From: Methylophilus rhizosphaerae | Lineage (GTDB): Bacteria; Pseudomonadota; Gammaproteobacteria; Burkholderiales; Methylophilaceae | Reading direction: 5' to 3' | Length of the DNA stretch: 64,000 nucleotides | Assembly (NCBI RefSeq): GCF_900100975.1 | Contig: NZ_FNFX01000005.1 | Location: forward strand, 124,001 to 188,000 | Part shown: positions 16,716 through 19,914 of the stretch, piece after piece | Numbering within the stretch: position 1 is the first letter of the stretch | Layout of the letters: every line of letters starts with the position of its first letter | Position numbers and translations under genes: made by a program | The notes under the pieces: generated by a model | What the model was told of the DNA's origin: nothing | The model's input: only the letters and a program-made list of their open reading frames with translations | The model's database searches: none

Positions 16716-17165
16716 ATGGCCTTATTCAATCCCAGCCGCGATGAAGTACGCCAGTTCTTTTTTGATGCCTGGCAAAAATTCAGGCAACAACAGGCCCTGA
16801 CCGATCTGGAAAAAATGGCGGTGGGCATCATGCATGCCCATCCGGAATATCACACCCTCCTGGATCAGCCGGAACACTACCTGCAACAGGCTTATTATCC
16901 CGAAATGGGCGAAACCAACCCGTTCCTGCACATGAGCCTGCACCTTTCCATCCAGGAGCAAATCAGCATTAACCAGCCGCCCGGCATTACGCAGGCCTAT
17001 GGCAAACTCTGCACGCGTTACCGGGAAGAACATGAAGCCCAGCATGCCTTGCTGGAATGCCTGGCAGAAACCATCTGGCTGGCGCAACGCAACCAGACTG
17101 GGCTCGATGCGACCCATTACCTGCAGCTCATAGAGCAGCGCGCAGGCATTGCCCCTTCAACGTAA
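16716..17165 (+). CDS. DUF1841 family protein
   Basis: A 149-residue soluble protein. FNPSRDEVRQFFFDAWQKF at the start and HMSLHLSIQEQISINQPPGI in the middle are typical of DUF1841, a family of unknown function in beta- and gammaproteobacteria. There is no signal peptide or membrane segment. The second half is helical and His/Glu-rich (YREEHEAQHALLECLAE), which could allow metal binding, though that is a guess. It starts two bases after nth, so it is probably cotranscribed with rnfB-nth. Confidence 0.85.
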   Translation: MALFNPSRDEVRQFFFDAWQKFRQQQALTDLEKMAVGIMHAHPEYHTLLDQPEHYLQQAYYPEMGETNPFLHMSLHLSIQEQISINQPPGITQAYGKLCTRYREEHEAQHALLECLAETIWLAQRNQTGLDATHYLQLIEQRAGIAPST

Positions 17166-17287
17166 ACTATGCTTCAATAAGCCGTCATACCGATGACCGG
17201 GAACACATGGCATCATGACCGGACCAATAAGGATGCGGTGAGCAAAGCTCGCGTCTACTTTCAACTGCCTGATAAAAAGGAGCTACT

Positions 17288-17593
17288 ATGAGTACCCATA
17301 AAATTGCTGTGATTTCCAGCGCTGTTGCTTTATCCGTTGCCGCTGCGGCTGCACACACCGCCGACAACCCGTTTGAACTGAAAACCCTGGGCCAAGGCTA
17401 CCAGGTGGCTGATGCCGAAAAGGCCAAAGACGGCAAATGTGGCAATGGCAACTGCGGGGCAGACAAGAAAAAAGCCAGGGAAGGCCATCATCATGACAAG
17501 GCCAAGGAAAACGCTGATGCTGCCAACAAGATGAAAGAAGGCGACTGCTCGGCTGACAAAATGAAAGATGGCGGCTGCCATGCCAGCAAATAA
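17288..17593 (+). CDS. Bufferin-type RiPP precursor peptide, Cys-rich and exported (BufA/HvfA-like)
   Basis: A 101-residue precursor. The signal peptide (MSTHKIAVISSAVALSVAAAAAH) is followed by ADNPFELKTLGQGYQVAD, a conserved-looking core start, then a Lys/Gly/Asp-rich tail with four cysteines: DGKCGNGNCG, EGDCS and DGGCH, plus a HHH cluster. The last part is a near-repeat, KMKEGDC and KMKDGGC. This matches the low-complexity EGKCG-type precursors encoded before DUF692 and DUF2063 genes. In that family the DUF692 enzyme turns cysteines into heterocycles and the product binds copper in the periplasm. The ribosome binding site AAAAGGAGC is strong. Function here is inferred from family and operon. 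Confidence 0.85.
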   Translation: MSTHKIAVISSAVALSVAAAAAHTADNPFELKTLGQGYQVADAEKAKDGKCGNGNCGADKKKAREGHHHDKAKENADAANKMKEGDCSADKMKDGGCHASK

Positions 17594-17607
17594 CTAACTT
17601 TTTATGC

Positions 17608-18480
17608 ATGGCACACCTTCAGGATATCCGCGGGGCAGGACTGGGGCTTAAACGTGAGCTGATTCCCCAACTCAAGCAGCAATATGGCCAGCCGTGGCTA
17701 CAGCATTTGCAGTTTATGGAAATTGCCCCGGAAAACTGGATAGGTGCAGGCGGCAAATACGCCGCCGATCTTGCCTGGTTTGCCGGGCGTTACCCGATCG
17801 TCTGCCATGGCCTTTGCCTGTCCCTGGGCGGGCCTGATCCGCTCAATCTTGATTTCTTGCGTCAGGTAAAGCAGTTTCTCGTGGACTTTGACATTCCGCT
17901 GTATAGCGAGCATTTAAGTTATTGCAGTGACGCTGCCAATGGTTATCTGTACGATTTGTTGCCAATGCCGTTCACTGAAGAAGCCGTGCACCATGTAGCG
18001 CAACGCATACGGCAAACGCAGGAGATCCTGGAGCGCCGGGTCGCGGTGGAAAACACCTCTTTTTATGCCGCCGCCCCTATCTCGACAATGGCTGAAAGCA
18101 CCTTTATCAATGCCGTGCTGGAAGAAGCTGACTGCCACCTGCACCTGGATATCAATAATGTGTATGTGAATAGCGTGAATTTCGGCTTTGACCCCTATGC
18201 CTTTCTCAGCCAGATGCCTGCCAAACGTATCGTGTACGGCCATATCGCCGGCCATCTGCAAGTTGAACCTGATTTGCTGGTAGATACGCATGGCGCGGCC
18301 GTGATTGATCCGGTATGGCAACTACTGGAGTTTGCCTATCAAACCCTGGGGGTATTTCCCACTCTGCTTGAGCGTGACACCCATATTCCACCATTACCAG
18401 AGCTCATGCAGGAAGTGGATCGCGTCCACCATGCCCAGCAAGCCGCACAGCATCCGCGTCCCCATGAGGCCATCGCCTGA
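17608..18480 (+). CDS. DUF692 / MNIO-family multinuclear iron enzyme (BufB/HvfB-like)
   Basis: A 290-residue TIM-barrel protein of the DUF692 (MNIO) family, which uses a cluster of two or three iron ions to oxidise cysteines of a precursor peptide. It opens with GAGLGLKREL and shows the metal-site motifs in order: EIAPENW (about 37-43), VCHG (about 63-66), YSEHLSY (about 98-104), VAVENTSFY (about 146-154), HLDINNVYVN (about 183-192), GHIAGH (about 210-215) and LLERDTHIP near the end. It lies 14 bases after the precursor gene and its stop overlaps the start of the DUF2063 gene by one base, so the three are translated from one operon. Confidence 0.93.
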   Translation: MAHLQDIRGAGLGLKRELIPQLKQQYGQPWLQHLQFMEIAPENWIGAGGKYAADLAWFAGRYPIVCHGLCLSLGGPDPLNLDFLRQVKQFLVDFDIPLYSEHLSYCSDAANGYLYDLLPMPFTEEAVHHVAQRIRQTQEILERRVAVENTSFYAAAPISTMAESTFINAVLEEADCHLHLDINNVYVNSVNFGFDPYAFLSQMPAKRIVYGHIAGHLQVEPDLLVDTHGAAVIDPVWQLLEFAYQTLGVFPTLLERDTHIPPLPELMQEVDRVHHAQQAAQHPRPHEAIA

Positions 18481-19247
18481 TGCAGTCACTCCAGGCCTAT
18501 CAGGCAGCATTTACCGCCCACCTGCGCCAACCGCAGCAACAGGCGCAACCGCGTGGCGTGAATGCCAGGCGCCTGGCTGTTTACCGGGAAATCGTCTTCA
18601 ACCAGTTTTATGCCAGTGTCAGCGCCTGCTTCCCGGTATTACAGTCGATATTGGGCAAACGCCGCTTCAGGAAGCTGGTCAGGCAATGTTTTGCCAGCCA
18701 TCATTTCGACAGCCCCTTCTTCAGGGATATTTCCAGGGCATTCGTGGATTTCTTGCAGGCACTGGACCTGGCTGCCTGTCATTTACCTCCCTTTACTGCA
18801 CAACTGGCCCACTATGAATGGATAGAGTTGTATGTGAGCCATTTGCCCGCCGAAGGGTTGCCTGCTTCTGCTACGGCTATCAAGGATGCGGAGGCGCTGG
18901 CAGCGGCCACTGTGCAGTTACAACCCGCACACAGCTTGCTCAGTTATGATTACCCTGTGCATCAACTGTCCAGAAAACAGGCGCACCTGCCACCTGTACC
19001 TACCTATCTGCTGGTGTTCAGAACAGCGGATTTCCATATACGGTTTGTCCAGCTCAATGCCATGACTTACCAACTGCTGCTGCACCTGCAATCCACCCAG
19101 TCAGGGCTCACCGGTCACTTGGCCTGCCTGGCTGCCACCTTGCTGCCCCACCTGCCGGCTCAATCTGTCACAACCTTTGGCCTGCAAACCTTGTACACCC
19201 TTTATTTGCAACAGGCGATTATTGCTCATCCCGCAGGCACGGCATAA
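18480..19247 (+). CDS. DUF2063 family partner of the MNIO enzyme (BufC/HvfC-like)
   Basis: A 255-residue protein with a DUF2063 N-terminal domain (LQAYQAAFTAHLRQ ... ARRLAVYREIVFNQFYASVSACFPVL, about residues 3-60) and a C-terminal domain of the type that presents the precursor peptide to the enzyme. In related systems this protein acts with DUF692 as the recognition subunit. Its ATG overlaps the TGA of the MNIO gene by one base, so translation is coupled. No membrane segment is visible. Confidence 0.9.
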   Translation: MQSLQAYQAAFTAHLRQPQQQAQPRGVNARRLAVYREIVFNQFYASVSACFPVLQSILGKRRFRKLVRQCFASHHFDSPFFRDISRAFVDFLQALDLAACHLPPFTAQLAHYEWIELYVSHLPAEGLPASATAIKDAEALAAATVQLQPAHSLLSYDYPVHQLSRKQAHLPPVPTYLLVFRTADFHIRFVQLNAMTYQLLLHLQSTQSGLTGHLACLAATLLPHLPAQSVTTFGLQTLYTLYLQQAIIAHPAGTA

Positions 19248-19446
19248 GCTCCTGTTTTTACTGCTAGCCTGCCGTCTGTACAAGCGACTGATGACGTCCA
19301 TCGCCGATGCAACCCCGCTGTAAATTCTCCTTTTTTGCACCAGCCCTCATACCCGGCCAGCTTTTTTCATGCCGGCAATGTACCGACAAAACCCCTCGCT
19401 GAAGAAACTGATAGAATGAATACACAATAATGACATCAGATCTATC

Positions 19447-19914
19447 ATGCAAACCGTGCTGGCCAAAAAGGCCCTTAAACAGTTCCGTATTATTTTTGGT
19501 GCCGTCAGGCACCACTTCCGGGAAATCGAGTCAACCTGCGGCATTTCCGGCTCGCAGTTGTGGCTATTACACGAAATCGCCACCCATCCGGAATTAGGGG
19601 TTTCCCGGCTGGCTGAGAACCTGTCTATTCATCAATCGACCTGCAGCCTGCTGGTTGAGAAGCTCGTTAAAAAGCGATTGATCGAAAAACAGCGTTTAAG
19701 TGAAGACCAGCGTAAAGTCGGTTTGCTTGTCACGGCCGCTGGGCAGGCGGTGCTGGCCAAAGCACCACAACCCGTGGACGGCATCTTTCCCCAGATACTG
19801 GCAAGCATGGATGCCCACGCATTACAGAACCTGAGCACCGCCCTGGAACTGGTCATCGCCAGGCTGGATGACCAGACCAGCCAGTTAGGGGATCAGCACA
19901 TGGCAGATTTGTAA
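19447..19914 (+). CDS. MarR family transcriptional regulator
   Basis: A 155-residue winged-helix regulator. The DNA-binding part is SGSQLWLLHEIATHPELGVS through LAENLSIHQSTCSLLVEKLVKKRLIEKQ, with wing residues SEDQRKVGLLVT, and helices for dimerisation at both ends. MarR proteins usually repress and respond to small ligands or oxidation; one Cys lies in the ESTCGISG turn and one in the recognition helix (QSTCSLL). It lies 199 bases after the bufferin operon on the same strand, so control of that operon is possible but unproven. Confidence 0.85.
   Translation: MQTVLAKKALKQFRIIFGAVRHHFREIESTCGISGSQLWLLHEIATHPELGVSRLAENLSIHQSTCSLLVEKLVKKRLIEKQRLSEDQRKVGLLVTAAGQAVLAKAPQPVDGIFPQILASMDAHALQNLSTALELVIARLDDQTSQLGDQHMADL

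Follow-up and report, generated by a model that had tools for sequence, protein, structure and literature searches.

Which peptide is made by an operon of the copper-binding type whose precursor carries few and irregular cysteine motifs, and what still controls its expression? The question is raised by three genes of Methylophilus rhizosphaerae, located within a stretch of 64,000 nucleotides (assembly GCF_900100975.1, contig NZ_FNFX01000005.1, positions 124,001 to 188,000 of the forward strand) that we refer to as the window, and from whose first base all positions are counted. As read from its sequence, the operon is a Lys-Cys captophorin operon, captophorins being the recent name for the HvfABC/oxazolin type (PMC13097082), and it very probably yields a small peptide for export, with cysteines converted to copper-binding rings. 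It is a known kind of operon in an unusual state, with a reduced precursor, a lost regulatory switch and an enzyme lineage with an altered specificity pocket. We consider it probable that this account holds as a whole, including a relaxed pocket, the loss of the switch and four or fewer rings per peptide. The operon comprises the following features.

17288 to 17593, forward strand: HvfA-family precursor of 101 amino acids with four cysteines and a signal-like N-terminus (NF050137, 21.0 bits, cut-off 19.5)
17429 to 17458, forward strand: Cys sites 1 and 2, DGKCG-NGNCG (Cys51 and Cys56), read from the sequence
17480 to 17527, forward strand: remnants of two lost Cys sites, EGHHHD and ENADAAN, from the genus precursor alignment
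17537 to 17581, forward strand: Cys sites 3 and 4, EGDCS at 17537-17551 (Cys87) and DGGCH at 17567-17581 (Cys97), read from the sequence
17608 to 18480, forward strand: HvfB-type MNIO of 290 amino acids (NF003818, 395.5 bits), in which Asp257 is the base and Thr258 (codon 18379-18381) the altered pocket residue
18480 to 19247, forward strand: HvfC-type DUF2063 (PME1) partner of 255 amino acids (NF050145, 221.6 bits; PF09836 and PF22106; weak match to 3dee)

These genes are closely packed, with a 14-bp gap between the precursor stop codon and the MNIO gene and an overlap of one base between the MNIO stop codon and the ATG of the DUF2063 gene. We compared them with 348 distinct loci, 102 from the family and 246 from outside it, where family and genus always mean the bacterial family and genus of the window genome, and where L, G and C labels denote loci, genomes and contigs. 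These come from 372 loci read, 371 of them with an MNIO open reading frame (ORF) and 358 with one above 230 bits; the sampling is uneven, in that 80 of 143 named loci were kept in order of their similarity to the window, and class loci came mostly from the top of the list. MNIO searches gave matches in 21 of the 22 genus genomes, with a high-identity orthologue in 19 of them, and 113 of 187 family genomes gave an MNIO of any kind. Directly 5' of the MNIO, a motif-site precursor is present at 100 of the 102 family loci and 198 of the 246 outside loci; the two family loci in which it was missed (L042 and L075) sit at the start of the fetched stretch. An HvfC-like ORF follows the MNIO at 101 of 102 family loci, the remaining one (L106) having 450 bases after the MNIO. 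Both family counts place the arrangement far above chance. In Pfam, the MNIO matches PF05114 (332.8 bits) and the partner PF09836 (76.3 bits) and NGO1945_C (64.6 bits). The original prediction of a complete precursor, MNIO and DUF2063 operon for a copper-binding ribosomally synthesized and post-translationally modified peptide is thus borne out by ORFs, domains and conservation, and the details that it gave (four cysteines, the motifs DGKCGNGNCG, EGDC and DGGC, the HHH cluster, the near-repeat KMKEGDC/KMKDGGC, the 14-base gap and the overlap) were all confirmed on the ORFs.

The narrower label of a bufferin-type operon did not hold. Among the curated NCBIfam models, the MNIO passes that for HvfB (cut-off 360) and the partner that for HvfC (cut-off 142), and because of these scores the label should read HvfABC/oxazolin type. 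The precursor passes the HvfA-family repeat domain, covering 19 of its 29 positions, and falls short of the HvfA equivalog NF050188 (23.6 bits, cut-off 95). Three other assignments were rejected: a bufferin proper, the MNIO scoring 263.7 bits and the BufB cut-off being 310; a bufferin-type precursor, as ours matches no Pfam family (so no DUF2282) and has four cysteines, not six or twelve; and a methanobactin, with 28.4 bits for the MbnB equivalog (cut-off 325). The precursor N-terminus is hydrophobic and Ala-rich by inspection, as in genus precursors, and its single true Lys-Cys site is DGKCG, compared with two or more such sites in the majority of genus precursors and one in L012. The pair Arg15 and Phe250, which is a signature of the Lys-Cys MNIO group and not its definition, is replaced in the window by Lys15 and Thr258.

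What chemistry should be expected of this enzyme? All residues conserved in at least 97% of the 348 relatives are present in the window MNIO, among them H67, H102, E148, D181, H212, H216, D226, H228, E255, R256 and D257, and a relative with a solved structure, 3bww, matches in sequence at 262 bits. In our reading of the D-T-H motif, D226 and H228 would be the equivalents of D242 and H244, both essential in HvfB (PMC13419390). The MNIO-PME1 products that have been examined are 5-thiooxazoles with an absorbance near 305 nm that bind copper; the mass loss of a two-repeat peptide was 8 Da, and a DGKCG substrate was fully modified by the FonBC pair (PMC13097082). Because the operon is of the oxazolin type, copper-binding 5-thiooxazoles would be expected here also. 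In the mechanism that we propose, the DUF2063 protein would present the precursor to the MNIO, which would oxidize cysteines to 5-thiooxazoles with a mass change of about -4 Da each, and the exported peptide would hold excess copper in the periplasm. If cleavage is assumed to leave Asp26 as the first residue, the peptide without modifications has a calculated monoisotopic mass of 8055.7 Da. The suggestion that a different type of ring might be made found no support, and that the MNIO installs another ring or modification strikes us as most improbable. It is true that the residue adjoining the catalytic base differs and that the Cys contexts depart from EGKCG, but the conserved residues of 5-thiooxazole formers are in place, the FonB variants F250A and F250D still gave a 5-thiooxazole-like product (PMC13097082), and the three-gene unit holds no further tailoring gene. 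With no changed catalytic residue either, a new ring type was set aside, and we see no sign of new ring chemistry.

The precursor had been described as degenerate, and alignment with genus precursors supports this by revealing two lost sites. Its 101 residues hold cysteines at positions 51, 56, 87 and 97 and the HHH cluster at 67-69; where relatives have EGSCHHDKAKEGSCSAD, the window has EGHHHDKAKENADAAN, such that two Cys sites are gone, EGHHHD standing in place of EGSCHHD and ENADAAN in place of EGSCSAD. On this alignment, HHH is the remainder of one lost Cys site, and both HHH and the near-repeat derive by decay from a repeat whose copies relatives keep intact; two of about six Cys sites have decayed. 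To count sites across loci, we took cysteines past residue 20 in the form [EDSTNQAKHG][GA]xC, which gave 553 sites in the family and 1334 outside it and left out the two family and 48 outside loci without an upstream motif-site precursor. The 17 other genus precursors read have five to eight sites, compared with four in the window; among the 100 family precursors, 18 have four counted sites and five have two. With at most four candidate sites, a different number of rings, as had been suggested, is likely, the ring count itself being a prediction. The second site, NGNCG, also occurs at the outside locus L229, and EGDCS is the sole site with an acid directly before Cys among the 100 family precursors. 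As a separate observation, the family precursor at L112 has vicinal Cys pairs (DGSCCA twice), and residue 258 of its enzyme is Met.

The residues that flank Cys have changed together with one residue of the enzyme pocket. In FonB, Phe250 adjoins the base Asp249 and packs against Lys3 and Gly5 of the substrate, and this position is conserved as Phe in Lys-Cys MNIOs and as Asp in Cys-Lys ones (PMC13097082). FonB Phe250 appears to match Thr258 of the window. In support of this mapping, the Asp before position 258 is invariant across relatives, and Asp occupies the position itself in ten of ten genus paralogues (L020 and L022-L030), CKG-type precursors being seen beside seven of them. Outside the family, residue 258 is Phe at 217 of 246 loci, which also fits the mapping, and Tyr at 4 more; inside it, Phe remains at one of 102 loci, the others having Ser (32), Asn (25), Thr (23), Ile (9), Leu (7), Val (2), Ala (2) or Met (1). 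Residue 15 is Lys at 101 of 102 family and 6 of 246 outside loci. On the substrate side, Cys is followed by neither Gly nor Ala in 269 of the 553 sites counted in the family (Ser 218, His 38, Asn 7, Lys 3, Cys 2 and Gln 1) versus 20 of 1334 sites outside. The two changes are also associated outside the family, where at least one non-Gly site is found at 20 of 177 loci with Phe or Tyr versus 14 of 21 others (Fisher 7e-8), and at least one non-Gly/Ala site at 10 of 177 versus 4 of 21 (p 0.046), relatedness being ignored in both tests. Within f179, a different family represented by a single genus, non-Gly sites (Cys-Ala or Cys-Ser) face none of nine Phe enzymes and five of six Leu enzymes (Fisher 0.002, uncorrected for relatedness). 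L098, the one family enzyme with Phe, faces Cys-Gly sites only, and in the tree it lies outside a clade of the 92 other family enzymes (support 99), its joining to them being unsupported (21). The family enzyme has lost the Phe that packs against Cys-flanking residues in FonB, and so can probably process sites in which Ser or His, and not just Gly, comes after Cys. We read the loss of Phe as an early event that permits substrate drift but does not force it.

Two further observations concern these enzymes. At L162, L174, L332, L367 and L371, residue 16, mostly Arg elsewhere, has changed to Tyr, Pro or Asp, with Asn or His at residue 258; in the four of these with a precursor found (L162, L174, L332 and L367), several sites start with Ala or Ser and not Glu, as a proposed Arg16-Glu1 contact predicts. 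At L020, L022-L024 and L026-L029, the MNIO lies in a single frame of 547-579 amino acids, apparently fused to its partner.

The association between residue 258 and the Cys flanks is strong, but it has counter-examples and is not significant once loci are paired on a tree, and several points weigh against our reading of it. Pairing on a tree built without the trait columns gave 3.5 for, 0.3 against and 2.2 without a difference for non-Gly sites, and 1.3, 0.2 and 4.5, respectively, for non-Gly/Ala sites, neither being significant; an earlier pairing with fewer loci, in which Tyr counted as loss, gave 2.3 for and 1.3 against and was not significant either. L127 keeps Phe alongside five Cys-Ser sites, its sister L118 having Val, which shows that such sites can occur with Phe in place, and in 29 of 100 family precursors every site has Gly or Ala after Cys; a strict rule whereby the absence of Phe means a residue other than Gly after Cys is contradicted by these cases. 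In the other MNIO of the window genome (L115), and at L021/L116, which are one place in G010, the position holds Asn, not the Asp of the other paralogues. Enzymes with Phe also occur together with Ala or Ser before Cys (L186 and L128). As for the substrate, Glu before Cys severely hampered FonBC, and most residues after Cys abolished processing, a small residue being needed there and charged ones going unprocessed; in double variants only Ala was tolerated beside Gly, and an LVHCY peptide was modified once (PMC13097082). Given these limits, sites 3 and 4 may stay unmodified.

This last point is the core of a rival that we regard as unlikely but serious, in which only Cys51 and Cys56 would become 5-thiooxazoles and Cys87, Cys97 and the HHH/His98 residues would keep their thiol and imidazole groups free, and the peptide would bind copper in a mixed, metallothionein-like manner. 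In addition to the FonBC preferences, the acid before Cys that is unique to the window precursor would fit such a peptide, as would the family members with two Cys that retain the first pair only (L083, L097, L104 and L105). What unmodified cysteines would not predict is that repeats of the form EG-S/A/N-C-S/H are kept across much of the family beside the changed-pocket enzyme.

The second departure of the window from its relatives lies in the DNA upstream of the precursor, among these flanking features.

16716 to 17165, forward strand: DUF1841 gene (PF08897, 193.9 bits), the upstream neighbour outside the operon, which serves as a marker of the locus
17164 to 17179, forward strand: 16-base promoter-like block of putative function, located in genus relatives 6 bases 5' of the sigma start codon
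17166 to 17287, no strand: 122-bp gap, where relatives have genes for an ECF sigma factor (about 180 amino acids) and a ZAS-type anti-sigma factor (about 82 amino acids)
19447 to 19914, forward strand: MarR-family regulator downstream of the operon (PF12802, 40.3 bits; PF01047, 39.4 bits)

The DUF1841 neighbour was also seen by reading at L002, L003, L005, L006, L008 and L009, where it stands before sigma, and not at L007 and L010; a MarR-like ORF also lies 3' of hvfC at L005, L012 and L013. In relatives, the genes 5' of hvfA encode an ECF sigma factor (Sigma70_r2 56.8 and r4 46.9 bits) and an 82-residue zf-HC2 protein (31.9 bits). An orthologue of the sigma factor (at least 73% identity) is present in 19 of the 22 genus genomes, namely G017 and the 18 other genomes with hvfB, in all 18 of which it adjoins the operon by coordinates, and the same 19 genomes have the anti-sigma factor. 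Searches of the window genome returned no sigma orthologue (best match 40 bits, 26% identity) and no match to the anti-sigma factor, a deletion in the assembly being possible for both. Of the 93 family loci whose fetched stretch extends 1150 bp or more 5' of the MNIO (the other 9 of 102 being too short for the call), 82 have both genes and 11, the window included, have neither; outside the family, both are found at 25 of 232 long-enough loci. Of the 10 further family loci whose fetched stretch lacks sigma, 9 have DUF1841 directly 5' of hvfA, and genome-wide searches at E 1e-12 found no sigma in 9 of the 10 corresponding genomes, some of which are incomplete (G066, 48%). The tenth, G151 (L114), has two sigma matches, and L114 is doubtful as a sigma-less locus because one of them (49% identity) shares contig and strand with hvfB and lies about 2.1 kb 5' of it, beyond the fetched stretch. 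On a quick tree, sigma presence takes a minimum of nine changes, or eight without L114. Apart from this count, G151 apparently holds two copies, the original one broken and the other intact: of its contigs C92 and C154, one carries the intact hvfB (L114) and the other hvfB fragments interrupted by stop codons, close to a sigma of 69% identity.

In the window genome, then, the dedicated sigma/anti-sigma pair appears to have been deleted, leaving a conserved promoter-like block 5' of the precursor. The 16-base block is exact in the window and recurs with 0-3 mismatches and the same spacing at 11 of 17 scored genus sigma loci, with 6-8 mismatches at the remaining six (L014-L019); over 48 scored sigma loci it averages 5.6 mismatches versus 7.1 when shuffled, and in the window it has one match at three or fewer mismatches, shuffles averaging 0.35. 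It was not found at the 10 other sigma-less family loci, where the best matches have 5-7 mismatches (counted without a shuffle control), and when the 122-bp gap was compared with genus loci by word search, nothing was returned beyond the block before the sigma start. A scan for sigma-70 promoters from 17100 to 19500 gave two sites, the level of shuffled sequence, neither of them 5' of the precursor. Since the block is kept while the pair is missing, hvfA now closely follows it, and with the pair deleted, output is probably no longer gated by it; with two Cys sites decayed, at most four rings would be made per peptide. Peroxide, diamide and singlet oxygen elicited no response from the meningococcal pair (PMC2893595), which sits less well with our account of the switch. 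The reverse of the window's condition was observed in G017: on contig C12 (L379), the same locus keeps DUF1841, sigma and the ZAS-type anti-sigma, and hvfABC is gone, leaving an orphan switch.

Loss of the switch might instead mean that the operon is decaying, in that it is poorly expressed since the pair was lost, its precursor is drifting and a second MNIO operon covers its job. We hold this to be rather improbable, even though two Cys sites are lost and one is acidified, the sigma pair is missing, and the sister genome G017 has lost hvfABC at this very locus while retaining the pair. The window genome does have a second MNIO operon with an ECF sigma, NrsF and DoxX on contig C8. This operon (L115, 604500-610500) carries on one strand a CSKK-type precursor of 86 amino acids, an MNIO, a short DUF2063 protein, DoxX and, by reading, an MsrA/MsrB-like ORF, with a divergent ECF sigma gene and NrsF. 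Sigma-less family loci also carry fewer Cys sites (Mann-Whitney 0.005, 11 versus 82 loci; 0.012 without L114 and 0.029 without L114 and the window; relatedness uncorrected throughout), but pairing on the tree gave 1.7 for, 0.2 against and 4.0 without a difference, which is not significant. Against decay, hvfB and hvfC are intact, AAAAAGGAG upstream of the precursor is retained, and the ratio of nonsynonymous to synonymous substitution rates (dN/dS) of hvfB is 0.05-0.13 in the pairwise comparisons that yielded a value (10 of 11), compared with an average of 0.065 (range 0.005-0.108) among other genus members. The ratio is rough because dS is saturated, and the window value is slightly above average among its sisters, both of which weigh against our main reading. 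Private changes show no consistent excess: of 18 three-way comparisons, 5 gave the window more such changes than its sister (by five at most) and 11 gave it fewer. The operon is probably still functional, judging from this pattern.

How does the system compare with those already described? It is like the HvfABC oxazolin operon of Haemophilus influenzae in gene order, in its HvfB-type MNIO and HvfC-type partner and in a Cys-repeat precursor with an N-terminal export segment, putative in the window, but HvfABC has six EGKCG-type sites and a DoxX-like gene (PMC13419390), whereas the window has four degenerate sites and no DoxX on its contig, the genome's four DoxX matches lying on contigs C5, C7 and C8. 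Thr258 likewise differs from the Phe of the near-homologue 3bww. FonABC, the fontiphorin system of Fontimonas thermophila, belongs to the same Lys-Cys group, has the same enzyme and partner families and accepts DGKCG, which is also a window site; it has seven modified sites and Arg15/Phe250 in FonB (PMC13097082), compared with Lys15/Thr258 and sites ending in Ser and His in the window. In Neisseria meningitidis, the autoregulated operon NMB2140-2145 (gonococcal NGO1943-1948) links a sigma factor, rpoE, and the ZAS anti-sigma-E factor NMB2145 to an MNIO operon, as in the window's relatives (PMC2893595), and Cys4, His30, Cys34 and Cys37 of the L005 anti-sigma factor, counted on its translation, have the residue numbers of NMB2145 (PMC2893595). 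Compared with this operon, the window genome has lost the sigma pair and has no DoxX at the locus. The Caulobacter bufferin 1 operons with SigF/NrsF, which are tied to metal stress (PMC12452194, PMC3511200), share with it an MNIO, a DUF2063 protein and a Cys peptide (in the window putatively secreted), and probably also the link to metal stress; the window differs in having no DUF2282, in scoring below the BufB cut-off and in lacking sigma/NrsF, which its C8 operon has.

The original prediction recognized the operon correctly, misnamed its subtype and foresaw neither the change at the specificity residue nor the loss of the sigma pair. The family-wide change of pocket and Cys flanks, and the window's combination of a lost sigma pair and a reduced precursor, look new: we found no account of such operons in this family among the literature matches listed, and in the main texts the strings EGSCS and EGSCG are absent from PMC13097082, and EGSC and Methylophil- from PMC12452194. 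Tentatively, and as a reading that could well prove right or wrong, we suggest that the family has a 5-thiooxazole synthase of relaxed specificity, in which the precursor became free to drift from EGKCG to EG-S/A/N-C-S/H once the pocket Phe had been lost, and that the window system was further cut from its sigma/anti-sigma switch. If so, 5-thiooxazoles beside Ser and His could create mixed N,S copper sites, and separation from the switch would have occurred seemingly some eight to nine times in the family, by the fewest changes on one tree. Which cysteines an MNIO processes is an open question that has been addressed with variants of one enzyme (PMC13097082); here, about 100 natural pairs of enzyme and substrate, with a smaller parallel in another genus, have pocket residue and substrate flanks changed together, and a single swap at residue 258/250 would make the question of specificity directly testable. 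In the window genome and, in the reverse sense, in G017, a peptide operon and its likely switch would be coming apart.

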